This document shows positions 553-24,680 of a stretch of DNA of 26,723 nt, in pieces. The notes beneath the pieces are model-generated. The model did no database searches. It worked only from the letters and a program-made list of their open reading frames with translations, and was not told the origin of the DNA. Position 1 is the stretch's first letter. Every line of letters starts with the position of its first letter. The position numbers and the translations under genes were made by a program. This stretch comes from a virus: positions 1 to 26,723 of the IMG/VR virus record IMGVR_UViG_3300043466_001639; one strand, given 5' to 3'.

Positions 553-573
553 CCTCTTATGTGCGTGGATTTT
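553..573 (-). repeat. 21-bp conserved intergenic repeat, copy 1
   Basis: On the coding strand this contains AATCCACGCACATAAGAGG, identical in all five copies. The TAA stop of the 1553-residue tail gene overlaps the first bases of the repeat, and the tape measure start lies 32 nt downstream. After the core comes ATATAAATATTAGATA, similar to the AT-rich tract after the other copies. The position suggests a promoter or RNA-processing element for the tape measure unit, which is an inference. Confidence 0.9.
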
Positions 574-3500
574 ATTCATATCTATATCTAAAAGTGATAT
601 CCCAATAAAAATTACACAAATCACTACCAATACTTTCAATATTCAAATTTATATTCCCAAGAGTATCTGTTAAATAAGCAGATTTATCTAAAACACTAAA
701 ATTGTTTTTTTCAACTTTATCAACACTACCAACTAATTCATAACTACCACCATTTTTTGTGAATACTCCAAATAATGATACTACACCACATTCATAAGTG
801 GGTGGGAATCCAGGTATGGTGGCTTCTAATCTAACATTAGCCTCAACTATTATAGGTGTTTGATCTGTAAGAATATCATCATTCACATAACTATCAAGTA
901 TTATATTCACATCACCAGCAATTATAGAAGTTGGATAATATCCAGTGATAGTTTTAATAATTGATTGTCCAGTTGGATCATTTGTAGTTGATATAGCATC
1001 ACTAATGATGAATGGTGGATTGAATCCTCCATCTTGGGATATGATAATATTTTCTGTCCCAAGATATGTTGTATTTGATGGTAATGATGATGAACCACCC
1101 AATATTAAATTTGAACCAACTATAAAAATATTTTCTGTGATACTTTGAGTCCCACTTGCAGTTGAACCACTCAATCCAAATGGTTGATATAAACTTATAT
1201 TATTACCAAAAACAAATCCACCAGGAATTTCATTGTATATGTTCTCACCAATTAAAACAGATGGACTATTACTACTTTCAACAATTGAATTTGATTGTCC
1301 TAAAACAAAATTGAATCCACCTGTAATATTCCCATTGTTGTCTCCAATGATGATATTATTTCTTTCATAAACATTATTATTCTCACCAATGACTATATTA
1401 TTTGGAGCAGTTATCAAATTATCACTTGATGTATTGATCACACCAAGATATTGTGCATTATCAAGTGGCATTGGTGGTCTAAAACCAGTTGATTGTTCTT
1501 GATATCCAAATCTTGCCATTGATTGTAATTCACAACTACAATCATCAAATGTCTCCCATAAAAATGCAGTCTGTTCCTCACCAGTTGCATCACTTATATA
1601 ATTTGATAAAGTGTATAATCCACCTGGACAAGGTAATGTTGTCTCATAATTAAAACAAATACTATCACTATCACATATACACAGATTTTGATTCACACCA
1701 TAAGTCAATCCACCTTCATCATAAACAGGACCTGAATCAGGAGCAAGAAGTGTTGAATCACAAAATAAATCTGGAGTCCATCCACCTGGTAGGTAATCTG
1801 TATTACTTAAACAAATGTATAAATTTAAATTCTCACCATAACATTCACTCACACAAGGATATTGTTGAATATCACTCACAAATCCAAAATCATAGCAAAC
1901 ATAATTTGGCGCAGGTGATCCAATAGTATCATTCATAGTCAGTTTAGCAATATAAGAATTATTACAAGTATCACATATCACACCATCCTGTCTATAATAA
2001 AATCTAACACCACCACCATCAAGGAAACTTGCAGACATTCCAAATATTGTGTTAGCCCAATCAACTATATCCCCAATATCATCATTACCAGTTGATGCTG
2101 TGAAATTATATGCTCCATTGGCATAAGTATTCCAAAAAGTCAAATAAGAACAACCAGTATCATAATTATCATTCACCACACTCACCAATTCATCAACTTG
2201 TGTGGAGTTTAAATCTATTGTGAAATATAGTGAATCCACATTACTTTGTGTTGAACAATCAGCCACCCAATTCCATCCTAATTGTAAATATGCACCCTCT
2301 GCCAATACTTCCCCACTTGCAGTTCCATATGCACCTGGAATTAAATTCAACCACAAATCTAAAAATGTATATTGATCAACACCACTATTCAAATCAAGGA
2401 AAAAAACATTATATCCTTCAACCCAAGTTCCAAATGTTGAACCACAAGGATAATCAACATAAATTGCTACATATGCGCTTCCAGGTGAATCCTCCCAATA
2501 TGCATTTAAAGTCCCAAGAAAAACAGATGATGCATTCTCATCCATCTCCACTTGGAAATTTAAACTACAAGTGCTTGATTGTGGATAATATGTAGCAGAC
2601 ATTCCAAGAAATGTAGCACCATTTATAGTATCAACAATATCTGTATATGTGAGTGGATATGAACCCATTTGAGATAATGGTGTTGTGATAACTTCACCAT
2701 TGAAATTCATTGTAAAATATGGAGTTAAAGAATAATAATATGTGTTTATTTGTTCAAGATATGTTGTGATATCAGGACCACATAAACATTTTTGTAAAGA
2801 AACAGGACAATCACCAGCATCTGCATCAATTTCAAGAGTGTAATTCAATGCCTTCACCATTTGAACTTTTGTTGATTCATATTTGGATGGATCATAATCC
2901 ATAATTTTATTCACCCTATAATATCCTGCCATATTATCAACACTCATATAAACAATATCAGCAAATGAAAAATTATTTATATCATATGAAGTCAAATTAA
3001 AATATGCCTCAACAATTCTACTTTCAGGTTGATTGAGTTCATAAAATGTATTAGCCCAATATGTGTAATACAAATTATTGATTGTCTCATTATATCCAGG
3101 ATAGAATGGTTGTATTGTCCCAAAATTTAAACTGATATTTGGATTCAATGGATCATCAGCAAATGATGCATATGGATATACATTTTGAACTGATGATGTT
3201 CCAATATTATATCCATTTTTCCAAAACCTCCATTGATCTCCAGCAGTTAGACCCAATGTTTTAGCATATAAAATCCTTGGATTGAATCCACCCAAATTTG
3301 TTAGGTTCCCATTATTATATCCAAATATTTGAGGAATATACATTTGATTGGCACCACTCAAATTTTTAATTGGGGTTGGTGAAAAAATCAATTCAATCTT
3401 TTTCTCATCGGATGAGAATTCATTCTCATATTCAAATTTATATTCACCAAATAAAGTATTTGTGATATTTTTATATTCTGTATTTAAATAATCTTTATCC

Positions 3501-5233
3501 TCTTTATATGTTAGAATATTTGTTCTTGGTTGTAAATTACTGGCTATCTCACTTACAATTGGTTTTGATAAATCTAATTTTTGGCTCCAATCTTTTTGTG
3601 ATTGATATTTTGTATAATACTCATCTCTTGGTTCAATTAAAAATGTTCTATCAACATCCTTTTTTGGATCAATGTAAAGATTGAACATCCTCATAATATT
3701 TGCTATAAAATCCTTCTGCTTCATATTTGGAAGGATTTTACTCATAATTATGGCACTATTTTCAACAGCAATAGTATCATCATATATCACATCAAAAGTC
3801 ATTTGGGAACAAGTAATTCTAACATCAATCAAATTACTCAATGGTAGTCCTCTATATGTAGATACACCATCAAATCCAAACCAGATCATAATTTTTTCAT
3901 CCTCCTCAATTGTATTTGGATCAACAACCAAATCAGTTTCAATGGTGCCTGAATAAACCCAATCACCTACACCAGCAGTAATTAAACTATAACTCACATT
4001 CAATCCTTGTGGATTGTCTTTTAAACTATAATATCTCTTACCAGCAAAATTTAGGGTTTTGTAAGTTTGATTGTATGGTGGTGTAGGATTGCTGATTCCA
4101 AAAATATTTGCTGCGGATGCTGTATTTCCAAAACTTGTGGAACCTTTACTTCTCACAACATAAATTCTAAAATCCCCAAAGGATCCTCCAAATTGATCAG
4201 TTTGATATGGATTGGTTGTGTAATTCAACCTTGTTCTTAAACCACCAATTGTGATTTTTATCTTTTGAGCAAATCTACCACTACTGGGATTTTGATACCA
4301 AGATTGTGTGAAATTGTATAAATTATTTGGATTGTAATTTGGGAAATCACCCTTCATATATCCAGCCAAATATAAACTTTGTCCTTGAATATATTTTGTC
4401 CCAACTGCTGCACCAGGATTTGATAATACATAACTGAATGTTGCTGGATTGTTTTGTGATATTACCAAGATTTGTTTTTGTGGTCCCAAGTTCAAATTCA
4501 CAGAACCAGCAATATTTTTATTACTATATGGCATTATCAGGTGTGAAAAAAATTCACTATCAAGAAAATCACTTACATATGAATATCCTGCCTCACTGAA
4601 TATTTGTCTCCATATTGTCTTTACATAAACTGCTGGCTTAAAATCCCATACTCTAAATTCACGAGTCATTGTGAGTGGTGTTCCATAATCAATCATCGGA
4701 TAATAATATCCATCCCCATAATTAGCAAACCAACTATTATAGACATTTGTTCCATTCCACACGTGATCATATCTACTCAAATCCAAATCACTTAAATATC
4801 CTTCACCAATTGTTTTGAATAAGCCATCATTCTCACTATAAACAACAACACTATAAACAAAATTTTCTAAACTCACATCATATTCAATATTAGTCAATTG
4901 TAGATTTCCCTCAAATTGAATCACATTGTCCTTTAATATAAAACATTTAACTTTCAAATTTGGATTGAAAAATGTAATATTACCACCACCATATAATTCA
5001 TATTGATAATTTAAACTCCAAATATCACTAAAAACTTGTTGATTGTTTTTTGTATTTGGTAATTTAATGGTTTTTGAATATGATGAATTTTTATTTGATA
5101 AATCTAAAATATCAGCAATATTGTAATTTAAACTGATACTTTCATCTTGAAATGTATCTACATAACATCTATCATTCTGTCCTACCAATGCTTGATTGAT
5201 TGGTCTTTCCAATATAATTTGATAATGAATCAT
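572..5233 (-). CDS. Large tail hub/fibre-like protein, 1553 residues
   Basis: This is the largest gene here and probably a tail-tip or receptor-binding component. The N-terminal ~800 residues form a beta-rich region rich in Tyr and Asn, as in Bacteroidota phage tail proteins that join the tip to a fibre. Residues ~806-1245 are rich in cysteine (CLCG, CDTC, CICD). They contain two similar modules near residues 860 and 1053, each with DIVD followed by a GMSA motif. Residues ~1275-1355 carry short repeats such as NNIVIGENNN and NNIIIGDNNG, like the stacked beta-turn heads of trimeric adhesins. A distinct beta-rich domain closes the protein. Its start shares one base with the preceding stop (TAATG), and its stop overlaps repeat copy 1. 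The structural role is likely, but the exact one is not shown. Confidence 0.75.
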   Translation of the reverse strand: MIHYQIILERPINQALVGQNDRCYVDTFQDESISLNYNIADILDLSNKNSSYSKTIKLPNTKNNQQVFSDIWSLNYQYELYGGGNITFFNPNLKVKCFILKDNVIQFEGNLQLTNIEYDVSLENFVYSVVVYSENDGLFKTIGEGYLSDLDLSRYDHVWNGTNVYNSWFANYGDGYYYPMIDYGTPLTMTREFRVWDFKPAVYVKTIWRQIFSEAGYSYVSDFLDSEFFSHLIMPYSNKNIAGSVNLNLGPQKQILVISQNNPATFSYVLSNPGAAVGTKYIQGQSLYLAGYMKGDFPNYNPNNLYNFTQSWYQNPSSGRFAQKIKITIGGLRTRLNYTTNPYQTDQFGGSFGDFRIYVVRSKGSTSFGNTASAANIFGISNPTPPYNQTYKTLNFAGKRYYSLKDNPQGLNVSYSLITAGVGDWVYSGTIETDLVVDPNTIEEDEKIMIWFGFDGVSTYRGLPLSNLIDVRITCSQMTFDVIYDDTIAVENSAIIMSKILPNMKQKDFIANIMRMFNLYIDPKKDVDRTFLIEPRDEYYTKYQSQKDWSQKLDLSKPIVSEIASNLQPRTNILTYKEDKDYLNTEYKNITNTLFGEYKFEYENEFSSDEKKIELIFSPTPIKNLSGANQMYIPQIFGYNNGNLTNLGGFNPRILYAKTLGLTAGDQWRFWKNGYNIGTSSVQNVYPYASFADDPLNPNISLNFGTIQPFYPGYNETINNLYYTYWANTFYELNQPESRIVEAYFNLTSYDINNFSFADIVYMSVDNMAGYYRVNKIMDYDPSKYESTKVQMVKALNYTLEIDADAGDCPVSLQKCLCGPDITTYLEQINTYYYSLTPYFTMNFNGEVITTPLSQMGSYPLTYTDIVDTINGATFLGMSATYYPQSSTCSLNFQVEMDENASSVFLGTLNAYWEDSPGSAYVAIYVDYPCGSTFGTWVEGYNVFFLDLNSGVDQYTFLDLWLNLIPGAYGTASGEVLAEGAYLQLGWNWVADCSTQSNVDSLYFTIDLNSTQVDELVSVVNDNYDTGCSYLTFWNTYANGAYNFTASTGNDDIGDIVDWANTIFGMSASFLDGGGVRFYYRQDGVICDTCNNSYIAKLTMNDTIGSPAPNYVCYDFGFVSDIQQYPCVSECYGENLNLYICLSNTDYLPGGWTPDLFCDSTLLAPDSGPVYDEGGLTYGVNQNLCICDSDSICFNYETTLPCPGGLYTLSNYISDATGEEQTAFLWETFDDCSCELQSMARFGYQEQSTGFRPPMPLDNAQYLGVINTSSDNLITAPNNIVIGENNNVYERNNIIIGDNNGNITGGFNFVLGQSNSIVESSNSPSVLIGENIYNEIPGGFVFGNNISLYQPFGLSGSTASGTQSITENIFIVGSNLILGGSSSLPSNTTYLGTENIIISQDGGFNPPFIISDAISTTNDPTGQSIIKTITGYYPTSIIAGDVNIILDSYVNDDILTDQTPIIVEANVRLEATIPGFPPTYECGVVSLFGVFTKNGGSYELVGSVDKVEKNNFSVLDKSAYLTDTLGNINLNIESIGSDLCNFYWDITFRYRYE

Positions 5234-6885: not shown

Positions 6886-6900
6886 TTAAATTTATATTTT

Positions 6901-7371
6901 TTATTTGAATTCCTTTTTAATTGGTGAATAAAATATTTTATTCAATAGTTCATCAATATCCTGAATTGCTCCTTTTTTTAATATTTGTTCTTTTTTCATC
7001 AAAATATTATCAATCACTTTTTGTTTAGCATTTGTAGGTTTAATTCCTTTTCTTTCAATTGATTTTGAAATCATAAAGGCAGTTTGTGTGAGTGATTGAT
7101 TTTTGATAATTATGTTTTTCATCTCAACCCATCTTTTGATGGCTTTCACAGGTGGAAATGATCCCCTCCTTCTACCTTCATCAACATATTGGAAATATGG
7201 TTCAGCCAAAATTTGTAGCATCAATCCTTCAACATCTTTTATGATTTTGAAATTTAATGATTGAATCAAATCCCCACTTGCCCTTTTGTCCTTCTCAACT
7301 AAAATTCTCCTCAAATAATTGACTGCCTCAACACCAACTATTTCAAGTTGTTTTCTCAATCCACTATCCAT
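6901..7371 (-). CDS. HK97 gp10-like head-tail connector/tail completion protein
   Basis: A 156-residue protein with the organisation of the HK97 gp10-like family: an N-terminal helix (LRKQLEIVGVEAVNYLRRIL), a short beta region, then YVDEGRRRGSFPPVKAIKRW and a later helix with AFMISKSIERKG. The phrase about a position near bulky residues followed by a proline-lysine-containing helix is characteristic of this family, whose members sit at the head-tail joint or complete the tail. The start is 22 nt after repeat copy 2 and is preceded by a GATATATAG leader rather than a Shine-Dalgarno sequence. The tail gene follows after 15 nt. It is probably the first gene of the unit downstream of copy 2. Confidence 0.7.
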   Translation of the reverse strand: MDSGLRKQLEIVGVEAVNYLRRILVEKDKRASGDLIQSLNFKIIKDVEGLMLQILAEPYFQYVDEGRRRGSFPPVKAIKRWVEMKNIIIKNQSLTQTAFMISKSIERKGIKPTNAKQKVIDNILMKKEQILKKGAIQDIDELLNKIFYSPIKKEFK

Positions 7372-7393
7372 ATTCTATATATCTATATTTACT

Positions 7394-7414
7394 CCTCTTA
7401 TGTGCGTGGATTTT
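7394..7414 (-). repeat. 21-bp conserved intergenic repeat, copy 2
   Basis: An exact copy of the repeat in coding-strand orientation. Here the TAA inside the repeat is the stop codon of the upstream 73-residue gene, so that protein ends KNPRT. The downstream flank (AGTAAATATAGATATA) is almost the same as the flank of inverted copy 5 (AGTATGAATATAGATATA), extending that pairwise match to roughly 40 bp with a 2-base difference in length. The gp10-like gene starts 22 nt downstream. Confidence 0.9.
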
Positions 7415-7619
7415 TGATATACTTTTTTATTGAATCAATTTGTGTTTTAATTGAATCAACCATACAAGTATCAACTCTCAATGTGTCTTTATACAAAGTA
7501 TCAACAATCACCTCTTTTTCAATTCTCTTATGTGAGCATATGTAATTCTCATAAAAAATTATCACAAAGAAAATCCCAAATAATACTAAACCAATCTTTA
7601 CAACTTTTTCAATATTCAT
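7398..7619 (-). CDS. Small membrane-anchored coiled-coil protein, 73 residues
   Basis: Residues ~7-24 (VKIGLVLFGIFFVIIFYE) form one hydrophobic membrane segment. The remainder is polar and helical, with repeating Val, Asp, Ile and Lys spacing (VDSIKTQIDSIKKYI). This shape is common in inner-membrane spanins and other phage envelope proteins, but no diagnostic motif supports that. The start overlaps the previous stop by ATGA. The last five residues, KNPRT, and the stop codon are supplied by the 21-bp repeat, so the natural end of the gene may have been replaced when the repeat arrived. Confidence 0.6.
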   Translation of the reverse strand: MNIEKVVKIGLVLFGIFFVIIFYENYICSHKRIEKEVIVDTLYKDTLRVDTCMVDSIKTQIDSIKKYIKNPRT

Positions 7620-10472: not shown

Positions 10473-10491
10473 ATACTATATATCAATTTTT

Positions 10492-11992: not shown

Positions 11993-11995
11993 ATA

Positions 11996-12544
11996 TCATT
12001 TATTTATTAAAGATAAAAATTCATTTCTCACAACCAAATCATTTTTAAACACACCAATCAATTTGGATGTTGTTGTCCAAGTATCGTGTTTTTTCACACC
12101 TCTCATACACATACATAAATGTTGTGCCTTTAAACATACAGCAACACCTTTTGGTGATAATTCTTGATTCAATCTATCTGCTATTTGTGTTGTGATCCTT
12201 TCTTGGTTTTGGAAATCATTGGCATACAAATCAACAACCCTTGCCAATTTTGATAAACCCACAATCTTATCATTTGGAATATAAGCAACAGAAGCAAAAC
12301 CCAGAAAAGGTGCTATGTGATGCTCACATAAACTATAAAAAGGAATATTAGTTTGAATTATCATTTCATCAATTCCCTCACTATTAAATGTTGTGAAATT
12401 GAATGGTTCCTTTTTTCTAAACTCCCTCAAAAATTTGATATATCTTTTTGGTGTTTCTATCAACCCCTCTCTATCCACATCCTCACCCAATTGATGTAAG
12501 ATTTGTTGAAAGTGCCATTCAGGTGAATTTATTTCATATTCCAT
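11996..12544 (-). CDS. folE: GTP cyclohydrolase I (preQ0 pathway, first step)
   Basis: This enzyme turns GTP into 7,8-dihydroneopterin triphosphate, the substrate of QueD. The zinc ligands are present: Cys73 and His76 in LCEHHIAPF, and Cys144 in HLCMCMRG. The 182-residue length fits the family, and the core phrases GLSKLARVVDLYA and QERITTQIAD are intact. In this window the likely purpose is 7-deazaguanine rather than folate, since QueD, QueE, QueC and DpdA are neighbours. It starts 29 nt after repeat copy 3, which separates it from the rest of the queuosine-type genes. It may therefore be controlled with the terminase genes. Confidence 0.93.
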   Translation of the reverse strand: MEYEINSPEWHFQQILHQLGEDVDREGLIETPKRYIKFLREFRKKEPFNFTTFNSEGIDEMIIQTNIPFYSLCEHHIAPFLGFASVAYIPNDKIVGLSKLARVVDLYANDFQNQERITTQIADRLNQELSPKGVAVCLKAQHLCMCMRGVKKHDTWTTTSKLIGVFKNDLVVRNEFLSLINK

Positions 12545-12573
12545 ATCTATTCTATTATTATTATTATTTATAT

Positions 12574-12594
12574 CCTCTTATGTGCGTGGATTTT
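12574..12594 (-). repeat. 21-bp conserved intergenic repeat, copy 3
   Basis: An exact copy in coding-strand orientation between queE and folE. The queE stop (TAA) overlaps its first bases, as at copy 1. The flank continues ATATAAATAATAATAATA before the folE start 29 nt away. The tract includes a short run of AAT triplets. Confidence 0.9.
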
Positions 12595-13351
12595 ATACAC
12601 CAGTTTTTTTATCCCATATTGTGATGTGGAGTCTATCAGTGAATCTTAAATTCTCTCTTATACAAATGTTCAATGCTTGTTCATAATGATTTTGTAATTC
12701 CTCCCTTGTCTGTCCCTCTGGCATTATCACAATCTGTTCCCTTTTGATCAATCCATTATCAATGAAGTCCCTTTTGATTTCTAACCAATCATCCTCATCT
12801 TGAATCACAAATTTAAAATGACTATTATCCAACTCACTTAAAAATTTCAACACATCAGGTTTATATCTCATATCATCATCATTTAATGAATTTGATAATT
12901 TTGGTGAATTGTTCCAACAATCAATAATTGATATCATTTCATCATCAGGCATCAATACACATTCATTCTCAATCTCCATATATGGCTTGAATCCAAATCT
13001 CTCAATGAACATCTTTGTGAATAATATTATTGATTTTTGTTGAATTAAAGGACTACCACCTGTCCATATTATATGCTGTCCCCCCTTATATTTTTCAATC
13101 ATATCATTCTCCTCTAACATATTCAAAATCTCATTCAAATTATATCCATTACCAAATCTCCATACAGATATAGTATCACACCACACACAATTCAATGTGC
13201 AGTTTTGGAGCCTTATGAATGTTGATGGAATCCCAACTTTGTTCTCACCTTGTATAGTATTACAAAATAATTCACTTATCTTTAAAACAGGCTCATCAAT
13301 GTTCCATTTCCTTCTCTCCTTTGGATTGCTTTTAATTAGATTCAAAATCAT
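12593..13351 (-). CDS. queE: 7-carboxy-7-deazaguanine synthase (radical SAM)
   Basis: QueE rearranges 6-carboxytetrahydropterin into 7-carboxy-7-deazaguanine. Cys51, Cys55 and Cys58 (NCTLNCVWCDT) make the CxxxCxxC iron-sulfur site of the radical SAM fold. The N-terminal phrase LFCNTIQGENKVGIPSTFIR is typical of QueE, and WTGGSPLIQ corresponds to the conserved GGEP-like SAM-binding motif, here with Ser in place of Glu. At 252 residues it is longer than many bacterial versions, as is common in phage and Bacteroidota forms. It is the last gene of the 16.3-12.6 kb coupled block. Confidence 0.9.
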   Translation of the reverse strand: MILNLIKSNPKERRKWNIDEPVLKISELFCNTIQGENKVGIPSTFIRLQNCTLNCVWCDTISVWRFGNGYNLNEILNMLEENDMIEKYKGGQHIIWTGGSPLIQQKSIILFTKMFIERFGFKPYMEIENECVLMPDDEMISIIDCWNNSPKLSNSLNDDDMRYKPDVLKFLSELDNSHFKFVIQDEDDWLEIKRDFIDNGLIKREQIVIMPEGQTREELQNHYEQALNICIRENLRFTDRLHITIWDKKTGV

Positions 13352-13368
13352 TTTTTATTATCATTTTT

Positions 13369-13899
13369 TTATATTTCATTTCCCCAAACTGACCAGCCTA
13401 ATCTTTCTTTTCTAGCAAACATCTCTATTTTATTTTGTGATGGGAACATTCTTCCTATTCTATCATAAACTTCTTGTGGTTTTTCACTATGTTTAGTCCT
13501 TTTAGAGACTACAATTTGTCTTTCTTTTCTACTACCTCTTGGTTTAGGTATTCTACCCTTTTTAAAACAGAGAACTACTTCCGTTTGTGTTAGTGTATAA
13601 AAACCCGGATTGGTAGCCATTTTATCCCATATGAAAGGAGTATGGACATAGTTAAATCCCCAACCTTTACCAAGTTCTATTGCTTGGTCTAAATGCGGCC
13701 AAGTAGCCCACATAAATAATAAACAATCATCATCAGCCCAACTATTTAATAAATGTTTAAATTCTTTAATCATATCCTTTGTCTTCATAGTTGGATAATG
13801 TGAAGCTGCCCCACCAGTTTCATCACCACCTTTGCCATTATGTTGTTTTTGTCCTTTGTAATCCCAAGGTGGATCTACGCATATTATTTGATATTTCAT
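13369..13899 (-). CDS. MT-A70 family DNA N6-adenine methyltransferase
   Basis: Residues 9-12 are the catalytic DPPW motif, and the following segment with ASHYPTM and later LFMWATWPHLDQAIEL is the usual MT-A70 organisation, with a C-terminal KPQEVYDRIGRMFP and EMFARKERLGWSVWGNE. The full 176-residue length fits phage N6-adenine methyltransferases. It would methylate adenine in DNA and so guard phage DNA or alter expression. It lies between queD and queE and interrupts the preQ0 set. It has about four CpG dinucleotides in 531 bp, whereas the rest of the window has about one per 700 bp, suggesting recent arrival by transfer. The target sequence cannot be told from the protein. Confidence 0.93.
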   Translation of the reverse strand: MKYQIICVDPPWDYKGQKQHNGKGGDETGGAASHYPTMKTKDMIKEFKHLLNSWADDDCLLFMWATWPHLDQAIELGKGWGFNYVHTPFIWDKMATNPGFYTLTQTEVVLCFKKGRIPKPRGSRKERQIVVSKRTKHSEKPQEVYDRIGRMFPSQNKIEMFARKERLGWSVWGNEI

Positions 13900-13901
13900 T
13901 T

Positions 13902-14297
13902 TTATTTCTCATAAATAATTTTACTTGATGTAGTTTCAGCAACTTCAATCTTATATATTGGTAATTTCCCTTCACCCTTTATCCTGTTGAATAAATACAT
14001 AGCAACATTCTCACAACTTGTCTCAAATGGTAATTTTTTATACACCTCACCACATTGATCCAACATCTCACATAATTCATCATTCTCCCATAATAAGAAG
14101 TAGTGATCAAAATCCTTTATGATTGGTTCAACAATCTTATCAATATCACTAAACAACATTGTGATCCCATTCTCCATCTCATCAAATTTAAAAAAACATT
14201 CAACATAATATGTGTGCCCGTGAATTCTACCACACTTCACACCTGCATTTTTATTTCTGTGTGCAGCATAAAAATGATATTTTTTCTCAATTACCAT
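13902..14297 (-). CDS. queD: 6-carboxy-5,6,7,8-tetrahydropterin synthase
   Basis: QueD converts dihydroneopterin triphosphate to 6-carboxytetrahydropterin. His13 (FYAAHR) and the His26/His28 pair (IHGHTY) are the zinc ligands, and Cys22 in the same loop is the catalytic cysteine. FDHYFLL and VAETTSS at the C-terminal end complete the active site. The 131-residue length is normal. Its start overlaps the queC stop by one base (TAATG), and only 2 nt separate it from the MT-A70 gene. This shows a tightly packed operon. Confidence 0.92.
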   Translation of the reverse strand: MVIEKKYHFYAAHRNKNAGVKCGRIHGHTYYVECFFKFDEMENGITMLFSDIDKIVEPIIKDFDHYFLLWENDELCEMLDQCGEVYKKLPFETSCENVAMYLFNRIKGEGKLPIYKIEVAETTSSKIIYEK

Positions 14298-14956
14298 TAC
14301 ATATCTTTAAATTTTTCATATCCATCCCTTCTTAAAAAACAGGCTGGACAATCTCCACAACCATATCCCCAATCATTGAATATTTCTCTATTACCATTAT
14401 AGCAAGTATGACTCAATTCAATCACTTCATTTAAATATCCAATATCATCTGCTAATTTGAATGTTTCTGCTTTATCCAAATACATCAATGGAGTTATTAT
14501 TTGAATATAAGTTTCACTACCTACATTTGTAGCCTGTTCAATCAAATCAATAAAATTCCTCCTACAATCAGGATATCCTGAATAATCTGTCTCACACACA
14601 CCTGTGATCAAATCACCACCACCAATTTTTTGTAAGTAGGAGTGTGCTAATGTAATGAACAATTGATTCCTATTTGGAACAAATGATGCTGGTAATCCTT
14701 TATCATTTAATACATTCACATCACCATTTGATGTTAAGGCACTATCAACAATTGTATTTAAGAATGATATGTCTATTATTGTTTGCTTCACACCTTCCCT
14801 CTTACAAATTTCCTGACTACATTCAATTTCAATATTGTGTTTTTGTCCATAAGCAAAAGTTATGGCTTCAACAATATCATATCTTTGTAATGCCCAATAT
14901 AAACAAGTTGTGCTATCTTGTCCTCCTGAAAAAATTACCAATGCTTTATTTTTCAT
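14297..14956 (-). CDS. queC: 7-cyano-7-deazaguanine synthase
   Basis: QueC uses ATP and ammonia to turn 7-carboxy-7-deazaguanine into preQ0. Residues 10-15 (SGGQDS) are the PP-loop that binds ATP. Cys185, Cys200, Cys203 and Cys206 (HTCYNG, YGCGDCPAC) form the zinc site. The 219-residue length equals stand-alone QueC, with no added glutamine amidotransferase domain, so the archaeosine-making GAT-QueC fusion is not present. With FolE, QueD and QueE in the window, the preQ0 route from GTP is complete. Confidence 0.95.
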   Translation of the reverse strand: MKNKALVIFSGGQDSTTCLYWALQRYDIVEAITFAYGQKHNIEIECSQEICKREGVKQTIIDISFLNTIVDSALTSNGDVNVLNDKGLPASFVPNRNQLFITLAHSYLQKIGGGDLITGVCETDYSGYPDCRRNFIDLIEQATNVGSETYIQIITPLMYLDKAETFKLADDIGYLNEVIELSHTCYNGNREIFNDWGYGCGDCPACFLRRDGYEKFKDM

Positions 14957-14959
14957 ATC

Positions 14960-15736
14960 TCATAAATTTTTTTCTGCCCATTGTTGATATTTCAACCATT
15001 CCAAAAAATTTGATAAGTGATATTCACTTGTCTTACCTTTTAATTTTTTATTTGCTGCTTTATTTGGATTGCTACAATCCTTGATCCCAATACCTGTGAA
15101 TCTGTATATGCGCCCATATTTTGAACCAGCCCAAGTTGTTGAATCAACTGAATCAAAATTTAATTTGGGTAATAAACTTGTATGTGTGAATCCCAATCCG
15201 TGTATTTTAGCATTTTTCTTATGTGCTTCATCAATGAATTTTTTTAATATCATTGGTTGTTTTCTCATCAACACACCATCATTGGTTGCTGTTGTTGTTC
15301 CAATTGAGACATATGGGAATTCCTCACACATCTTTAAATAATATTCCCATCCTCTATTTGAATGCCATACAGGTATTGGTTGTCTCCCAATCACATCAGT
15401 CATCTTATCTCTGTAATATTCAACCTTCTTTAAACCAACTACTGAATCAATATCCAATTCAAAGAATAATTTTTGGTCTGTTGTTTTTATGAAATTTATA
15501 TAATCCTTCACATATTGATCCCAATCCAATTTCTTGGCACTTTCAATATCTTTGAATGTTGAGTAAGCACCACTATCCAAAATGTGTTTATCACCCATTA
15601 CAAATTCACTAATTGTTCTTGATCTCCTCCATTCAACAAATGAACTCAATATCCAAGTATCATTTAAAATTGATTTCCCTTGTGGTGAATTCAATTGTCC
15701 TACTAAACTCTTCACACCTGCTAAATATACAATCAT
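14960..15736 (-). CDS. dpdA: DpdA-like DNA guanine transglycosylase
   Basis: A 258-residue relative of tRNA-guanine transglycosylases. Asp54 in LDSGAYSTF matches the substrate-binding Asp of the family, Asp95/Asp97 in ELDIDS the second Asp region, and Asp195/Asp198 in FDSVDSTTW the nucleophile region, with the GxG-type IHGLGFTHT before it. It is shorter than full tRNA enzymes and lacks a visible zinc-binding C-terminus, as phage DpdA proteins do. DpdA exchanges guanine for a 7-deazaguanine in DNA. Because preQ0 is the last product made by the neighbouring enzymes, the predicted base is dPreQ0 (7-cyano-7-deazaguanine). Its start overlaps the ParB-like gene by ATGA. Confidence 0.85.
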   Translation of the reverse strand: MIVYLAGVKSLVGQLNSPQGKSILNDTWILSSFVEWRRSRTISEFVMGDKHILDSGAYSTFKDIESAKKLDWDQYVKDYINFIKTTDQKLFFELDIDSVVGLKKVEYYRDKMTDVIGRQPIPVWHSNRGWEYYLKMCEEFPYVSIGTTTATNDGVLMRKQPMILKKFIDEAHKKNAKIHGLGFTHTSLLPKLNFDSVDSTTWAGSKYGRIYRFTGIGIKDCSNPNKAANKKLKGKTSEYHLSNFLEWLKYQQWAEKNL

Positions 15737-16272
15737 TCACCTTCAAGTAATTTTAATATTATTGCTTCTTTTGTTCCAGAATATTTCTTTATGTTCTCCA
15801 TAAACAAATCATAATCATTGTCTGTATATTCAAGAATGATTTTCTTTTTCACATCACCTGATTCATCCGCAGTTTTATCAATAAAAAATTCATCAACATC
15901 AAAATCTGTTTTTTCAATATCAATCCCCATATCACTCAATATTTCAATATCCCAATCCTGTTCCAATAATTCAAAATCCCACTCACCACTTGATGTATTA
16001 TCTTTAATGATGAATTCCTTCTTTTGATCCTCTGTTAGATTTTTAAATCTTATGATTGGGACTTCCTTCATACCTGCTTCTTTACAGGCTTTCAATCTTT
16101 GGTTCCCACCCAATACAACCATATCATCATCAACAACAATTGGTCTCACCTCTAACATTTCTGGAAATCCTTTTATTGATTTCACCAATTTTTCAAATTT
16201 ATTATCTTTGATAATCCTTGGATTTTTTGAATTTTGTTTTATTTTTGAAATATCAATTTTTTCAATTACCAT
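15733..16272 (-). CDS. ParB/Srx-fold protein, candidate partner of DpdA
   Basis: A 179-residue protein with an N-terminal ParB-type domain. It includes NPR at 17-19, and residues 55-59 (GGNQR) match the G-x-x-R nucleotide-binding motif. The next region, VPIIRFKNLTEDQKKEFIIKDN, is common to phage ParB-like proteins near DNA methyltransferases. The C-terminal third is acidic and helical. In the Salmonella dpd system a ParB-related protein (DpdB) acts with DpdA to place preQ0 into DNA. Here the gene overlaps dpdA by 4 nt, so the two are coupled in translation. I infer a role in DNA modification rather than chromosome partition, because no ParA is seen. Confidence 0.75.
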   Translation of the reverse strand: MVIEKIDISKIKQNSKNPRIIKDNKFEKLVKSIKGFPEMLEVRPIVVDDDMVVLGGNQRLKACKEAGMKEVPIIRFKNLTEDQKKEFIIKDNTSSGEWDFELLEQDWDIEILSDMGIDIEKTDFDVDEFFIDKTADESGDVKKKIILEYTDNDYDLFMENIKKYSGTKEAIILKLLEGE

Positions 16273-16306
16273 ATAATTTTTCTGTTTTTTTGTAATATTT
16301 GTAATA

Positions 16307-17622: not shown

Positions 17623-17626
17623 TAAA

Positions 17627-17932: not shown

Positions 17933-17954
17933 ATCTAATAATTATTTTTTTTAT

Positions 17955-18524: not shown

Positions 18525-18566
18525 AATAAATCTTTTTTTATTATATATTCAACTTTTTTTTAAAAA

Positions 18567-18593
18567 AAAATATAATGCGGTGTTTTTTACAAA
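18567..18593 (-). promoter_or_regulatory. Possible Bacteroidota-type promoter before the nuclease gene
   Basis: On the coding strand a TTTG element is followed after 15 nt by TATATTTT, loosely like the Bacteroidota -33 TTTG and -7 TAnnTTTG boxes, but the spacing is shorter than usual and the second box lacks the final G. It lies just after an intrinsic terminator and ahead of a long coupled gene block, where a promoter would be needed. The AT-rich background makes chance matches likely. Confidence 0.3.
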
Positions 18594-18606
18594 AAAAGAG
18601 GGGTGA

Positions 18607-18651
18607 TAAAAAAAAAATAAAAAAATAACCAGTATGAAATTCACACTGGCT
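18607..18651 (-). terminator. Intrinsic terminator after the zinc-protein gene
   Basis: In minus-strand RNA the arms CCAGTGTG and CATACTGG pair over 8 bp (one G-U), extendable to 10 bp with a further G-U and A-U pair, around an AATTT loop. The stem is followed by ATTTTTTTATTTTTTTTTT. The stem plus U-rich tail is a standard intrinsic terminator. It ends the short unit that begins at repeat copy 4. Confidence 0.8.
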
Positions 18652-18692
18652 ATCTACACATTAAAACTAACAATTCAAATCATAATTATATA

Positions 18693-19010
18693 TTACAAAA
18701 CACTCTTTCCCTTTGGATCATATCCTAAAAAAATGAATCCAAATCCTTCATCAATAAATTTTTGTTTATCACATTCTTTTATTTTATTTGTTAGGACTTT
18801 TTCACCATTTGAAAGTGTGATGTATGAATTCAACCAACTTTGTTTTACAATGTTCTTGCGCTTTTTCTTACCTGTTTTATTTTTCTTTTGATTCACACAT
18901 TCTCTACAACTTCCCAAATATGTATCTTTTGATTCCAAATATGAAAACTCCTCAATACTCAATTCCCTCTTACATAAATTACATATTTTATATGTGTGAA
19001 TTATTCTCAT
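18693..19010 (-). CDS. Zinc-binding (2 x CxxC) small protein, HNH-like N-terminus
   Basis: A 105-residue protein with CNLC near residue 10 and CREC near residue 35, the pairs separated by an EEFSYLESKDTYLGS segment. This matches the zinc-binding start of many phage HNH endonucleases and of stand-alone small proteins of this type. No HNH catalytic segment is seen. Residues ~42-55 are strongly basic (KKNKTGKKKRKN), fit for DNA or RNA binding. The start overlaps the upstream gene by one base (TAATG), and the terminator lies just downstream. Confidence 0.65.
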   Translation of the reverse strand: MRIIHTYKICNLCKRELSIEEFSYLESKDTYLGSCRECVNQKKNKTGKKKRKNIVKQSWLNSYITLSNGEKVLTNKIKECDKQKFIDEGFGFIFLGYDPKGKSVL

Positions 19011-19288
19011 TATCCAAATTTAAAATCTTGAATGGCTAACTGATTAGAATAATAAGTTATTATACTTCCAATTAAATATCCTATTGCTTGTGATAGAGCA
19101 ACAATTGCTCTGTCTTTCCAATTTTTTGATTGTATCATATAACCTACAAATGGGAGTCCCAAGAAAGGACCTATGAATGCAAAACTAAACATACCTATTG
19201 GGTTTTTATCTGCAACAAAAGTAATATAGAAAGTAGAGGCAATTTCTCCAATCACAGCAGCAATTGAAATTATCAAATACTTTTTCAT
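19010..19288 (-). CDS. Small integral membrane protein, 92 residues
   Basis: Three hydrophobic stretches (YLIISIAAVIGEIASTF, FAFIGPFLGLPFVGYMI, AIGYLIGSIITYY) predict a small multi-helix membrane protein. It is not recognised. It could be a second holin or antiholin given that the holin gene is directly upstream, or a superinfection-immunity protein that acts at the membrane. It is the first gene after repeat copy 4, whose core ends 46 nt before the start. Confidence 0.6.
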   Translation of the reverse strand: MKKYLIISIAAVIGEIASTFYITFVADKNPIGMFSFAFIGPFLGLPFVGYMIQSKNWKDRAIVALSQAIGYLIGSIITYYSNQLAIQDFKFG

Positions 19289-19334
19289 AATTTATATATC
19301 TTGAATCACCACCTTTCTATCTATAATTTATACA

Positions 19335-19355
19335 CCTCTTATGTGCGTGGATTTT
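19335..19355 (-). repeat. 21-bp conserved intergenic repeat, copy 4
   Basis: An exact copy in coding-strand orientation. Its internal TAA is the stop codon of the holin gene, so the holin ends KNPRT, as does the unrelated membrane protein at copy 2. The core is followed by TGTATAAATTATAGATAG, sharing the TATAGATA element with copies 2 and 5. The next start is 46 nt away, the longest of the four leaders. Confidence 0.9.
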
Positions 19356-19746
19356 TGGATGTGTTAGCCCTTCTTTCAATGGAGGATGAAATTTTATCCC
19401 ATAATGAATATCCAAATATCAACTGCCAACTTTCATCAATACTCCTCAATTCAACCAGACATATTAGACCTGCACCCAATTTTTCAAGTGGGAGTCCTGT
19501 CTCAAAGATATAAATATTTGTGTAATACAAAAGGAGTATCACAATATTGTAGAATAATATTTTAGCAATACTCTTGCTCATTTTTCTTGATGTGATTTTT
19601 TCACCTTGTTTATTGGCTCTATAAATTCCAAAAAGGAAATCAGCAACAATCAATCCAACTAATGTTAGTGAGATGTGTTTAATTGGTGTGAGTGTTGAAA
19701 AAAAACTCACCATCATATATGTGATAAATGTCTTTACTTTTTCCAT
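19339..19746 (-). CDS. Holin (phage holin family 4-like)
   Basis: A 135-residue membrane protein with an N-terminal hydrophobic segment, a second (LTLVGLIVADFLFGIYRA), and a third after a short basic loop (ILFYNIVILLLYYTNIYIF). The ADFLFGIYRA-KQGEKITSRKM turn and the later CLVELRSIDES segment are typical of the Cph1-type holins (family 4). Holins permeabilise the inner membrane at the end of infection and let an endolysin reach the wall. No endolysin is visible in the window. The C-terminus KNPRT is encoded by repeat copy 4. Confidence 0.75.
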   Translation of the reverse strand: MEKVKTFITYMMVSFFSTLTPIKHISLTLVGLIVADFLFGIYRANKQGEKITSRKMSKSIAKILFYNIVILLLYYTNIYIFETGLPLEKLGAGLICLVELRSIDESWQLIFGYSLWDKISSSIERRANTSKNPRT

Positions 19747-19753
19747 TTATGAA

Positions 19754-20359
19754 TCAATCATTTATATACCATTGTCCATTTGGACAACCATCACAAGGTC
19801 CTGAATATCTACCATTTGATCCAAACCAATAATTTTCTGGGAGATACAATCCTCCAAAATAATTGTTCCTTTTAGCCCTCAATCTATTCACACCATTTAC
19901 TTGGAAATATTCTGGGAAATCAGTAGGGTTGTTAGTAATATATTCTCTTATCCTTTGGGAATAAAATTGTGCATTATTTGATAATTGTTGTCTAATATAC
20001 TCAATATCCTGTCTTGATGAAGGTTGTCCATATTCACTTGATTTTTGTGAAACTGACTTATTTGTGATCTTGAATCCTAAACTGGGTGCTGCTTCATAAA
20101 TACTCCACAATGCTGTTGCTGGTTGAATGAAGTTGTTCATCAAAAATAAATATTGGGCTCCTTGTGGGGAACCTGTGGTGTTGATATCATCAATGAATTT
20201 CATATAAAGATTATATCCAAGGACTTGTTGAATCCTTATGTTTTGAGCAATCAATATAAATGAATTTAATGCATCATCATCAATATTTTGATCAAGATAT
20301 CCTGAATAATATTTTTTGATATAAGAAGTTGTGATGAAATAAACATTATTAGCAATCAT
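19754..20359 (-). CDS. Head-tail connector protein (DUF6712-like)
   Basis: The ORF could open at 20431, but that would overlap the portal by 65 nt. The ATG at 20359 (MIANNVYFITTSYIKK), 7 nt after the portal stop, is a better start, giving 201 residues. Helical segments such as FILIAQNIRIQQVLGYNLYM and FLMNNFIQPATALWSIYEA match the small connectors that follow portals in Bacteroidota phages. These bind the portal ring and form the neck. The C-terminal tail has two CxxC-like cysteines (GPCDGCPNGQW). Confidence 0.7.
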   Translation of the reverse strand: MIANNVYFITTSYIKKYYSGYLDQNIDDDALNSFILIAQNIRIQQVLGYNLYMKFIDDINTTGSPQGAQYLFLMNNFIQPATALWSIYEAAPSLGFKITNKSVSQKSSEYGQPSSRQDIEYIRQQLSNNAQFYSQRIREYITNNPTDFPEYFQVNGVNRLRAKRNNYFGGLYLPENYWFGSNGRYSGPCDGCPNGQWYIND

Positions 20360-20366
20360 ATGTAAT

Positions 20367-21875
20367 TTAATTATTTTGTGTGATATCCCCAAGTAGAGCA
20401 TCAACTTCTGCATCCAATAAACCAAGACCACTCTTGATCAATATGGATGCCTGTTCTTTACTCAATTGATTCTTTTTATATTGGCGGATGATTCTCAATA
20501 ATTGTTGATGTTGTTTTGCTGTTAGATTTTTCACATTCTCATTCACAATCATTTTTTCATCCTCATTATCATCTTCCTCAATTGGTGATAAATTATTTGC
20601 TTTGATTTCATTTGTATCTAATTCAGGATCATATTCAGTTAAATTTTTAGCAACACTTTCATCATATTCATTTTGAATCAACAAATAATATTTTTGTTTT
20701 GCTGGAATTTGACTTTCCAATATTTGTAGAACATCACCCATATTAGTATTTATTTTACTAAATTGAGGTGAATAAACACTTATCTTAAATTCCCCATCAA
20801 TGCCATTTATCCTTCTCAACCAATTGAATGTTTTTTCAATCAATCTTTGTTTTGGTTTTGTATATTGAGTTTGGAATATTTCCAATGATTCCAATAATTC
20901 ATTTCTTGATCCAAGAGCACCAGGTGTCTCAATGCCAAAAAGTGCTGGGTTTATTACTCTGTGTGCTTTGAGGATTCCCTCTTGAATTTGTTTATTCAAC
21001 ATTATGAATCTTTCATCACTTGTGTTTAATTCAATTCTATCAAATGTTGCTGCTGAATCCTTATCTTGTGAAAAAGTAATTAGAACATTACCAGCCATAT
21101 CACTACCTTGATATTGGTTTTTCAATCTCTTGATGATCTCACTTGCCTCCTCTTGACTTGGTTGTCCAATTGGGAAATTTATATGGACAGAAGGATGGAA
21201 TCCATTTTTCACATTATTCAAATGGAAATTTGATACTTCCCATTCCAATTCAATCCATCTCACACCTGCTTCATATTCAGGTCTGGCATAAAATTCTGTG
21301 CCAGGTCTATACTCCTTCACATACAATATTTGTGATTTTTGTGATTTGTCCATTGTTGAAAAACCTTGATATAATACAGGTGGATATTTTTGTAAGTTTT
21401 CCCATCCTTGACTTATGAAATATTGTTCAGTGAATATTCCATCATCCTTCATATATGGATTTGCTATCCTAACTTTTGATGGATCAATATAATTGATTTC
21501 ACTTATCTTGGAACCATCTTTACTCCAAATCAAATTTAAATAAAAACCTCCATACAATTCAAGGTCCATACTGATCTTAAAAAGGATTTCATCACAATCA
21601 TCCTGATTGTATATGTTCTTTAAGAATTGGATTCCCTCTGGTGATAAATCTTGTTTATTCCATCCACCACCACCAATCAACATAGCCTTCTGCTTCACAA
21701 TTGATGAATGGAGACTTGACTTATTAGACAAATCAATTAGATAGTAGGGATATAAATTATTATCACCCCACTCAACCCAATTTTTTGTTCTTGATACTCT
21801 CTCAATTGGGCTTGGAATTGATACTGAATTAAAATTAAAACTCTCTATTATTTTCTTTTCTTCCATTTTTATCAC
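20367..21875 (-). CDS. Portal protein
   Basis: A 502-residue protein forming the ring at the capsid vertex through which DNA is packed. Visible portal features are an early GGDNNLYPYYLIDL-like segment (WGDNNLYPYYLIDLS), the YGGFYLNLIWSKDG strand region, a wing-like LEWEVSNFHLNN area and the long clip/stem helix near residues 270-340 (LNKQIQEGILKAHRV followed by FGIETPGALGS). Residues ~420-440 are very acidic and a helical tail ends the protein. Its start overlaps the preceding gene by 4 nt; an internal ATG at residue 4 is an alternative. Confidence 0.85.
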   Translation of the reverse strand: MIKMEEKKIIESFNFNSVSIPSPIERVSRTKNWVEWGDNNLYPYYLIDLSNKSSLHSSIVKQKAMLIGGGGWNKQDLSPEGIQFLKNIYNQDDCDEILFKISMDLELYGGFYLNLIWSKDGSKISEINYIDPSKVRIANPYMKDDGIFTEQYFISQGWENLQKYPPVLYQGFSTMDKSQKSQILYVKEYRPGTEFYARPEYEAGVRWIELEWEVSNFHLNNVKNGFHPSVHINFPIGQPSQEEASEIIKRLKNQYQGSDMAGNVLITFSQDKDSAATFDRIELNTSDERFIMLNKQIQEGILKAHRVINPALFGIETPGALGSRNELLESLEIFQTQYTKPKQRLIEKTFNWLRRINGIDGEFKISVYSPQFSKINTNMGDVLQILESQIPAKQKYYLLIQNEYDESVAKNLTEYDPELDTNEIKANNLSPIEEDDNEDEKMIVNENVKNLTAKQHQQLLRIIRQYKKNQLSKEQASILIKSGLGLLDAEVDALLGDITQNN

Positions 21876-22267
21876 ATATTTTTATAGTATATAATTTCAG
21901 TATCATCATTACCTGTATAACTTTGATCACTTGAATATGTTAAACTACAAATCAATATTCCTGATTCAACAAGATTTGTTGATTGTGTGAAACTCAAATC
22001 ATATGGTGCAGACATTTCCCATACATTATATGTATATTCACCTGCTGAAATTACAATCTGTCCTTGTGTTAGACCTGATATTGTTCCCACTGAAATTGTG
22101 AATGAGTTCCAATACCAAGGTGCATAACTTGAATCATCCTGATAAAATATTACTTCATCAAAACTACCCTTCCTGATCAACTGCCAGGTGTAGTAAGGTT
22201 GAATCAATGTTGATTTTTCATAAAGAGTTGTGGTGAGAACATTCACACCATCAGTTAGATATAACAT
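21872..22267 (-). CDS. Small beta-rich structural protein, 131 residues
   Basis: A beta-rich protein with aromatic repeats (YYTWQLIRKGSFDEVIFYQDD, APWYWNSFTISVG) and a Gly-Glu-Tyr turn (SAGEYTYNVWEM). Similar small proteins lie just before the portal in other Bacteroidota phages and are believed to be virion parts such as decoration or neck proteins. There is no signal peptide or enzyme motif. It is coupled to the portal gene by ATGA. The role is inferred from context. Confidence 0.5.
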   Translation of the reverse strand: MLYLTDGVNVLTTTLYEKSTLIQPYYTWQLIRKGSFDEVIFYQDDSSYAPWYWNSFTISVGTISGLTQGQIVISAGEYTYNVWEMSAPYDLSFTQSTNLVESGILICSLTYSSDQSYTGNDDTEIIYYKNM

Positions 22268-22270
22268 TGT

Positions 22271-22612
22271 TTATATATTTTTTTGGACAATATTGTCTTT
22301 GTAGTATTTATATATTTTATTCCACATCTCAACAATTTGTTCATTCACAGGATAATCATTCAATTCATCAATATTATCTGTGATATCACTATAAAAATTT
22401 ATGATTTCATTCAAATCACCAAATTCAACATTATACTCATTCTCAATCACTTTATCAATGAATGTTGATAATTCCTTATGTGAAATATTTTTTGATTTGG
22501 CTTTATTGATTCTCCAATTTTTGAAATACACTTTACTGCATTTCTTACAATATGAATTTTTGTTCATTTCCTTTAATGAACCACATTTACTACAATGGTG
22601 ATAAACAGACAT
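22271..22612 (-). CDS. Zinc-binding (2 x CxxC) small protein
   Basis: A 113-residue protein with CSKC at residues 7-10 and CKKC at 22-25, a compact zinc ribbon, followed by a basic patch (YFKNWRINKAKSK). The remainder is an acidic helical domain. The N-terminus resembles that of the 105-residue protein at 18.7-19.0 kb, so they may be distant paralogues that bind nucleic acids. A GATATATAG leader stands before the start. No nuclease motif was seen. Confidence 0.6.
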   Translation of the reverse strand: MSVYHHCSKCGSLKEMNKNSYCKKCSKVYFKNWRINKAKSKNISHKELSTFIDKVIENEYNVEFGDLNEIINFYSDITDNIDELNDYPVNEQIVEMWNKIYKYYKDNIVQKNI

Positions 22613-22653
22613 AAATCTATATATCTATTTATCACCACTATCCTCAATCCAAA

Positions 22654-22848
22654 TCAATCGTGTTTAAAAGTATCATCTGGCAGAACCCAAACTCTATCAC
22701 CCACATATACTGCATTATCATATCTCAATGATTCAATACAAGTATAAAATGCCAAAAATACATCACCACAATCTTGTTCATTATACTTTTTCCCATTATG
22801 ATAAATTGGGAATCTATTGTCTTTTTCAATTTCAATTATCTGCTTCAT
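22654..22848 (-). CDS. Unknown protein, 64 residues
   Basis: I do not recognise it. It is short, with likely beta strands (NAVYVGDRVWVLPDD) and two cysteines that are not paired in a CxxC. It starts 3 nt after the stop of the polymerase-like gene, which implies coupled translation and perhaps a shared function with the polymerase. Confidence 0.5.
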   Translation of the reverse strand: MKQIIEIEKDNRFPIYHNGKKYNEQDCGDVFLAFYTCIESLRYDNAVYVGDRVWVLPDDTFKHD

Positions 22849-22851
22849 ATC

Positions 22852-24066
22852 TCAATTTATTTTTTCAATTTTTAATTCAGGTGTGATTCCATACATTTGA
22901 TCAAAACAATCAATTATCAAATTATTCACATCACCAATATGTTTTTCATCAACTAACCAGGCATCGTGTATGGTGTAGTATTTAATTCCCATTTCATTTA
23001 ATTTTTCACATACAACATCAATACAAAAACTACTCTCAATCTTTTGTAATTTAATAGCAAACTCACTATGGTTCTCAACTTTTTGTGATTCAATGAATGT
23101 ATAAATTGTAGGAAAAATTGATTTGAATACTTCCTTCTCCTTTTTAAAACTACCATTCTTTGAATAATAAATTTTGAACATCAACTCCTTTATTTCCTCC
23201 CTTGTGATATCCTTTGAATATTTCATTTCATATTCATTTTTGAATTCCTCATAAAAATTTCCATTGGATGTCCAATTTTTGTATTTCAATAATTCATATT
23301 GATCCACACAAAATCCACGCACATAAGAGGAGTATGAATATAGATATAAACATAAGAAGAATGGTTGTGAATTCACAATATCAACTTGCCATAAATTTTT
23401 GGTTGTGATGAACTTTTTATACTCACTCTTCAATGATGTTAGATTTGTGTCTATTCTATCATTAGTTTGATTTCTATTGAAATGTAGGTCCCCATCAGCA
23501 ATACTCCTCAATCTCATATAAATGGAATTGTATTTGGATATCACATTCAATTTTTGATCCATATTTAAACACTTATCCATTTCATTGTTGAACCAATCAT
23601 TCAAATGTGATTCAGCACCATCAATATCAATTTTGAATGTCTCAATAAAATGATCCCTATATGGCTTCAATGAATCACACACCAAATTCAATCTTTTATT
23701 TCTATTGGTGATAATTTTATTGGATAATGTTTTCTTTCTAATTTCAACTGGAATGATCTTGGAAATTATGGATTTGTGAAATCTATATCCAAGAGCCTTA
23801 CCATTCACAATTGAATATGTATTATCACACTCAATCAAATTATTTGTAATCAAGAAATCAATATATCTTTTATACTTATCCAAAATATCACAAAAATATT
23901 TCCTTGGGATATCAATAAATTCATTTGCTTGTTCATCATTTTTCCTAAACACACTTTGTCTATAAATCATATCACATACAACAAAAAGATGTTCTTTATT
24001 CTTATATGGAATATCACTCAATTTATTGAATAAAATTTCTGGAACATATCTCTTTACTTGATTCAT
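22852..24066 (-). CDS. Family-A-like (TV-Pol-type) polymerase
   Basis: A 404-residue protein whose C-terminal half has the core motifs of superfamily A polymerases: motif A with Asp229 (VDIVNSQPFFL), motif B with Arg289, Lys293, Phe297 and Tyr301 (TREEIKELMFKIYYSKNG), and motif C with His367-Asp368 (YTIHDAWLV). The R-x3-K-x3-F-x3-Y pattern is that of DNA polymerase I, where Phe favours deoxynucleotides. Motif A, with D-x3-S, is closer to T7-type RNA polymerases. This mixture, the small size and an N-terminal region resembling a winged helix point to the TV-Pol family described for mobile elements and viruses, proposed to be primase-polymerases. No exonuclease domain is seen. Inverted repeat copy 5 is read through in frame as SSYVRGF at 246-252. 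Confidence 0.7.
   Translation of the reverse strand: MNQVKRYVPEILFNKLSDIPYKNKEHLFVVCDMIYRQSVFRKNDEQANEFIDIPRKYFCDILDKYKRYIDFLITNNLIECDNTYSIVNGKALGYRFHKSIISKIIPVEIRKKTLSNKIITNRNKRLNLVCDSLKPYRDHFIETFKIDIDGAESHLNDWFNNEMDKCLNMDQKLNVISKYNSIYMRLRSIADGDLHFNRNQTNDRIDTNLTSLKSEYKKFITTKNLWQVDIVNSQPFFLCLYLYSYSSYVRGFCVDQYELLKYKNWTSNGNFYEEFKNEYEMKYSKDITREEIKELMFKIYYSKNGSFKKEKEVFKSIFPTIYTFIESQKVENHSEFAIKLQKIESSFCIDVVCEKLNEMGIKYYTIHDAWLVDEKHIGDVNNLIIDCFDQMYGITPELKIEKIN
23310..23330 (+). repeat. 21-bp repeat, copy 5, inverted and inside a gene
   Basis: The same 21 bases as the other copies, but running in plus-strand direction, opposite to all genes here. It lies in the polymerase gene, 14 codons after the motif A Asp, and keeps the frame. 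The downstream flank matches copy 2 (AGTATGAATATAGATATA against AGTAAATATAGATATA). Confidence 0.9.
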
Positions 24067-24657: not shown

Positions 24658-24680
24658 TGTGTGTTGTTTATTTTTATATA

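Follow-up and report, generated by a model that had tools for sequence, protein, structure and literature searches.

The window, that is, the whole stretch of viral DNA analysed here (26,723 nt), has all of its genes on the minus strand and contains five exact copies of a 21-mer, AAAATCCACGCACATAAGAGG, the sequence common to all sites. Four copies run with the genes and the fifth lies inside the gene of a 404-aa polymerase (Table 1). Terminase genes are found beyond folE (11996-12544), behind copy 3.

Table 1. Element copies and features of the polymerase gene in the window.
Feature	Position	Strand	19-mer AATCCACGCACATAAGAGG	Context
Element copy 1	553..573	-	553-571 (-)	Predicted start base G at 556; 32 nt before ATG of tape-measure-like ORF 2-520
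Element copy 2	7394..7414	-	7394-7412 (-)	Spans stop codon of ORF 7398-7619; 22 nt before ATG of ORF 6901-7371
Element copy 3	12574..12594	-	12574-12592 (-)	Directly after QueE-like ORF 12593-13351; 29 nt before ATG of folE 11996-12544
Element copy 4	19335..19355	-	19335-19353 (-)	Spans stop codon of holin-like ORF 19339-19746; 46 nt before ATG of ORF 19010-19288
Element copy 5	23310..23330	+	23312-23330 (+)	Antisense inside polymerase gene 22852-24066; other strand encodes SSYVRGF
404-aa polymerase	22852-24066	-		Winged-helix-like 1-110, then family-A palm/fingers; without exonuclease (model)
Motif A DIVNSQP, motif B KELMFKIYY, motif C HD	in polymerase 22852-24066	-		Assigned from homolog alignment and model
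Coil loop housing copy 5, codons 246-255 of polymerase	23302..23331	-		Between palm motif A and fingers

The initial annotation had described five identical 21-bp copies, and exactly this number was found; the 19-mer AATCCACGCACATAAGAGG has no further site at up to three mismatches in the whole window, its chance expectation in 100 shuffles of the window was 0, and an exact search of IMG/VR showed it to be absent from every other contig. The coordinates likewise bear out that the four gene-sense copies precede the next ATG by 22-46 nt; two of them directly follow a TAA and two contain the stop codon of the preceding gene (KNPRT-stop). The CpG of the element is indeed a rare pair in this genome (observed/expected 0.06; 36 CpGs in 26.7 kb), and 5 of the 36 fall within the five copies. 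Likeness between the copies at 7394 and 23310 extends past the 21-mer into A/T-rich DNA (39 nt at 87%). No Rfam match and no dyad symmetry were detected in the element, and RNA folding was better than that of shuffles in one of the five 121-nt windows (copy 2, z -3.8). The window has a further leader repeat, consisting of GGTAGGGGGRGACAACATT and A/T-rich DNA; it occurs twice on the minus strand at about 24658-24885, upstream of short ORFs, and a strong terminator (24945-24975) precedes the two repeats.

Including the window, the element is present in nine genomes or contigs that encode this polymerase family, with 1-5 copies each and 22 sites altogether, a count in which the single site of genome G003 is included in both of its terminal copies. 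The polymerases of the eight other contigs are about 30-51% identical to that of the window. In G001 (contig L091, 51% identity), a complete genome with an exact 127-bp end overlap, a 34-nt repeat (core CACATAAGAAG) occurs twice within the polymerase gene, both times antisense, with a spacing of 252 nt. G009 and G010 (44-46%) also have two antisense copies each in this gene, 243 and 249 nt apart, and G002 (47%) has one copy there and two elsewhere. Three intergenic copies occur in G011 and one in G008, with none in the available part of either polymerase gene (that of G011 is incomplete in the contig), and the single site of G003 lies within its terminal overlap; the sites of G003, G008 and G011 are neither in nor directly beside the polymerase gene. 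Most of the contigs are fragments, three of them short (G008, G009 and G010), and these counts may therefore omit some copies. In a scan of a genome collection, a Flavobacteriaceae chromosome (L203) was found to encode a polymerase relative at 48% identity. The element occurs there only twice in 21 kb, the two copies lying 67 bp apart and immediately before the polymerase gene. The region is an integrated element with a neighbouring tyrosine integrase, and none of the 10 flanking proteins scanned was recognisable as a phage structural protein. A CBASS-like pair (patatin phospholipase and DncV-like synthase; L203:3492-7882) adjoins the integrase.

The element is tied to this polymerase family. 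Repeats in about 80 terminase relatives included no comparable intergenic family, and the pattern AAAACTTGCYACATAAGARRAG matched, among viral contigs, only G011 and G001, both already known as carriers of the polymerase. Distant polymerase relatives (~20-30% identity) showed no clear element except in G003. The initial annotation had named the absence of copies at equal positions in related phages as a refutation of its reading; the positions differ between genomes, and it is the core sequence and the link to the polymerase gene that are kept. Three observations concern the surroundings of individual sites. About 65 bp around the polymerase-internal site of G002 (gene in L092) recur imperfectly upstream of the small terminase gene (L177:180-260), as a segment copied out of the polymerase gene. 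The ends of the G003 contigs (L179, L180) can be overlapped in either of two registers (104 nt or 123 nt), suggesting that the genome is circular and that about 0.7 kb beside the site is variable. The sites at L188 5224 and L092 2758 lie upstream of genes that seem homologous by eye (260 aa and 174 aa), in opposite orientations.

The consensus of the 22 sites from nine genomes is AAAAAC-nnn-C-Y-ACATAAG-R-R-G-R-R, followed by A/T-rich DNA. The invariance of ACATAAG is by construction, since this word served as the search handle; this does not apply, for the most part, to the A-tract, to C at -6 and -2, to the purines further on or to the A/T-rich side. Profiles built by leaving out one genome at a time ranked the true sites first in 9 of 9 genomes, with gaps of up to ~20 bits, the exceptions being two of the three G002 sites, which are without the upstream half. 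The sites of the window scored 18.0-21.1 bits against 11.7 for the next match, and those of G001 29-30 against 9.7. As the best scores in the terminase relatives reached 20.8 bits in 868 kb, single matches near 18-20 bits are no proof of a site, whereas five in 27 kb with such a gap are. Divergence of the upstream half of the element tended to follow polymerase distance, a trend that is not significant (Mantel rho 0.33, p 0.12).

Copies within the polymerase gene were found in five genomes, in one or two variable loops each, and are antisense in 8 of 8 cases. Their recurrence in related genomes revises the view in the initial annotation that only four of the window copies are ordered elements: the fifth is no stray. 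Two reading frames are found for these copies, depending on the genome (TAT GTG in G001 and the window; TTA TGT in G002, G009 and G010), and the loops that hold a copy have extra residues and are shorter in relatives lacking it. Conservation at the level of the peptide was rejected on these grounds; with two frames and extra loop residues, it is the DNA word that is kept. Pairing between the mRNA of intergenic copies and the polymerase mRNA was also rejected as a general role, because all G002 copies share one orientation relative to the genes. No description of a cis element placed antisense in loops of a polymerase gene was found in the literature searched.

Sequence comparisons of the polymerase with Pfam, PHROGs, NCBIfam and PDB gave no convincing family, and matches among deposited phages were limited to distant huge-phage proteins, which align with it at DIxNSQP, KxxxYxxxFG and HD motifs. 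Its AlphaFold model (mean pLDDT 91, pTM 0.85) identifies it as a DNA-polymerase-I-type enzyme with an A-superfamily fold lacking the exonuclease: it matches family-A DNA polymerases in PDB, where the best 50 fold matches are DNA polymerases with no RNA polymerase among them, and the model also matches a viral protein at 46% identity (TM 0.93) as well as Aeromonas and Rheinheimera phage proteins of ~430-450 aa. Palm motifs A, B and C and the active-site arginine (R204) are present, as expected of this superfamily, and 13 positions are invariant among 51 homologs (R204, T210, D229, I230, S233, Q234, Y272, K293, K329, Q341, E344, H367 and D368). Judged by the secondary structure of the model, residues 1-110 resemble a winged helix. 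Copy 5 encodes residues 246-253, within the coil 246-255, and block 241-250 (pLDDT 71) is among the less confident parts of the model.

The element resembles the promoters of T7-class phages (T7, T3, SP6, K11), which are ~23 bp long, near-identical within a genome and A/T-rich at the upstream end, with a phage-specific middle, a conserved core of CAC/ATAA type and a purine start; the genomes described here show the same multiple near-identical sites of about 23 bp with conserved core and purine start. In the best alignment with the T7/T3/SP6/K11 consensus, +1 falls on the G of ACATAAG on the F strand, with permutation p values, over all offsets and both strands, of 0.001 by columns and 0.003 by two-column blocks, and G001 CACATAAGAAGAG matches SP6 CACTATAGAAGAG at 10 of 13 positions. 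The comparison used four promoter sequences; the likeness had been noticed before the test was run, so the result is support rather than proof. In T7, two such RNA polymerase promoters lie at the primary origin. The element differs from T7-class promoters in that it is not consistently placed before genes and is often antisense in the polymerase gene, and the polymerase, at 404 aa, folds nearest DNA polymerases. Promoter-like orientation is seen in the window (four of five copies), G008 and G011, where intergenic copies run with the genes; those of G002 and G003 run against them, and in G001 (complete) and the contigs G009 and G010 all copies are antisense inside the polymerase gene, so that the expected orientation is lacking in these five. 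This inconstant orientation and the confinement of the G001 copies to the polymerase gene do not support the proposal in the initial annotation that each of the four gene-sense copies could head a set of genes, a 'promoter heading operons' being too narrow a description; its broader idea of a shared function stands in that the site is real, selected, phage-specific and promoter-like in appearance.

The reading that we prefer, and to which we give about an even chance, is that the sites are start sites for the phage's own polymerase, used mainly in replication. The 21-mer would be the form taken in the window by a short, directional site at which nucleic-acid synthesis begins and which the 404-aa polymerase recognises. 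The enzyme would bind the A-tract (positions -11 to -8, counted from the first A of ACATAAG) together with the phage-specific bases after it, open the ACATAA/A+T-rich part and start a new strand, whether RNA or DNA, without a primer at the G of ACATAAG, moving in the AAGAGG direction. The main use would be to start or prime genome replication, and copies placed before operons, as in the window, may additionally give transcripts. Such a use would account for sites that often lie in or next to the polymerase gene, also in antisense, and the reading is preferred because a replication-start site has no orientation constraint, would be located near its initiator and could survive in an element without recognised structural genes. 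The literature precedent for self-starting A-family enzymes and the content of G001 both point to start sites: no other polymerase, helicase or primase was found in this genome by Pfam or among the best 25 of 97 PHROG families. The positions within the polymerase gene in five genomes and upstream of it in L203, as well as the A/T-rich 3' side, agree with a replication origin. Origins usually have clustered sites, and the dispersion of the sites in the window and G011 speaks against this part of the reading. No origin signal came from GC skew, which is monotone in the window, G001 and G003, where the genes lie on one strand. Further points against the reading are the two G002 sites without the upstream half, the non-significant Mantel trend and the distant polymerase relatives that, G003 excepted, show no clear element.

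It is rather unlikely, in our estimation, that the sites serve solely as promoters and the enzyme as a T7-like single-subunit RNA polymerase, with four of the sites driving operons in the window and the fifth giving an antisense RNA that limits the polymerase. The layout and register of the T7 class, the sense copies 22-46 nt before ATGs in the window and those of G011 (three) and G008 (one) would fit this explanation, as would divPolA2, which is also among the fold matches and was proposed as a possible RNA polymerase (PMC11348598). It leaves unexplained, however, the genomes with copies only antisense in the polymerase gene (G001, G009, G010) and the intergenic copies of G002 and G003 that point against the genes; moreover, the 50 best PDB matches are all DNA polymerases, and L203 retains a pair of sites with no phage structural gene recognised among the flanking proteins scanned.

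Asymmetric, near-identical and dispersed intergenic sites are also typical of operators such as the stoperators of mycobacteriophage L5. Bound by the winged-helix part of the polymerase or by another repressor, the sites would control transcription or load replication proteins with no start of synthesis, and the winged-helix-like N-terminus and the L203 pair upstream of the polymerase gene, suitable for autoregulation, are in line with this idea. We regard it as improbable, as the orientation of the sites relative to transcription varies, whereas L5-type stoperators keep a single one, and conservation goes beyond a binding word to cover the ACATAAG-purine-A/T part expected for melting and starting.

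Promoters for the host RNA polymerase with a phage sigma-like factor are very unlikely: G001 encodes a sigma-70 region 4 protein and TATA-like A/T DNA follows the core, but no sigma-like protein was seen among the window ORFs scanned (part of the window), the G011 candidate reached only E 0.08, that of G008 had no match, and the antisense placement in the polymerase gene would stay unexplained. Recombination, packaging or small mobile-repeat sequences have hardly any probability, for while positions shift between genomes and the ~65-bp segment of G002 recurs upstream of the small terminase gene, the sites have no dyad symmetry, several per genome would cut the genome if used for packaging, and the core has persisted among polymerases that are 31-57% identical whereas the remainder has drifted, which is not the picture of recently spread repeats.

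Start sites for the phage's own polymerase can be compared with several known systems. Phage lambda O is an initiator with a winged-helix part and has its binding sites inside its own gene, both of which are paralleled by the putative initiator described here; O is not a polymerase, however, and the lambda iterons are clustered, in contrast to one or two directional loop sites. De novo synthesis of DNA primers, with initiation favoured at a putative origin, has been described for CCPol-MP of SCCmec, an A-family enzyme (PMC7581432) that shares with the present case a small A-family polymerase, mobile DNA and a candidate or preferred start site close to its own operon. Unlike the polymerase of the window, CCPol needs the partner MP, has no reported winged-helix fusion and leaves origin recognition to the helicase Cch2 (PMC7581432), and no helicase was found in G001 by Pfam or among the 25 PHROG families listed. 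The TV-Pols, predicted primase-polymerases of small viruses and mobile elements, have, as judged from motifs and model, a similar minimal A-superfamily palm, fingers and thumb with no nuclease (PMC2579912), whereas no link to a D5 helicase or resolvase was observed in the genomes examined here. Another divergent phage PolA without exonuclease is divPolA2 of Barba-type phages, proposed to act in repair or as an RNA polymerase (PMC11348598); it accompanies a main polymerase, in contrast to complete G001, where the enzyme is the only polymerase found.

A bolder form of the start-site reading, possible but doubtful, is that replication in a group of Bacteroidota-type phages and integrative elements is initiated entirely by a minimal A-family polymerase with a winged helix fused to it. 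This enzyme would recognise a T7-promoter-like duplex site and start there by itself, carry its origin antisense in surface loops of its own gene whose sole purpose is to hold the signal, and link, within one superfamily, the sequence-specific RNA polymerases to the primase-polymerases. Phage polymerases that have start sites of their own are a known kind; what is new, as far as the literature was searched, is the antisense position in polymerase loops, which clearly exemplifies how a coding gene can accommodate a cis element in its loops. Family A includes both primer-dependent DNA polymerases and self-starting RNA polymerases, so that the origin of sequence-specific primer-free starts is at stake, and with a phage enzyme of 400 aa and a candidate site of 23-29 bp the question is testable with two reagents. 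The system also offers a handle on the replication of small Bacteroidota-type phages without other recognised replication genes and a set of candidate orthogonal polymerase/site pairs.

The window contains in addition a run of 7-deazaguanine genes on the minus strand (11996-16272; FolE, QueE, QueD, QueC), accompanied by an adenine-methylase-like ORF (13369-13899), a ParB-N protein and a 258-aa ORF that may encode a DpdA-like transferase. Together these genes make the phage a candidate for DNA base modification. CpG depletion similar to that of the window (observed/expected 0.04-0.06) was observed in three contigs with distant polymerase relatives (L119, L122 and L128), most others in the search having values of 0.3-0.8.
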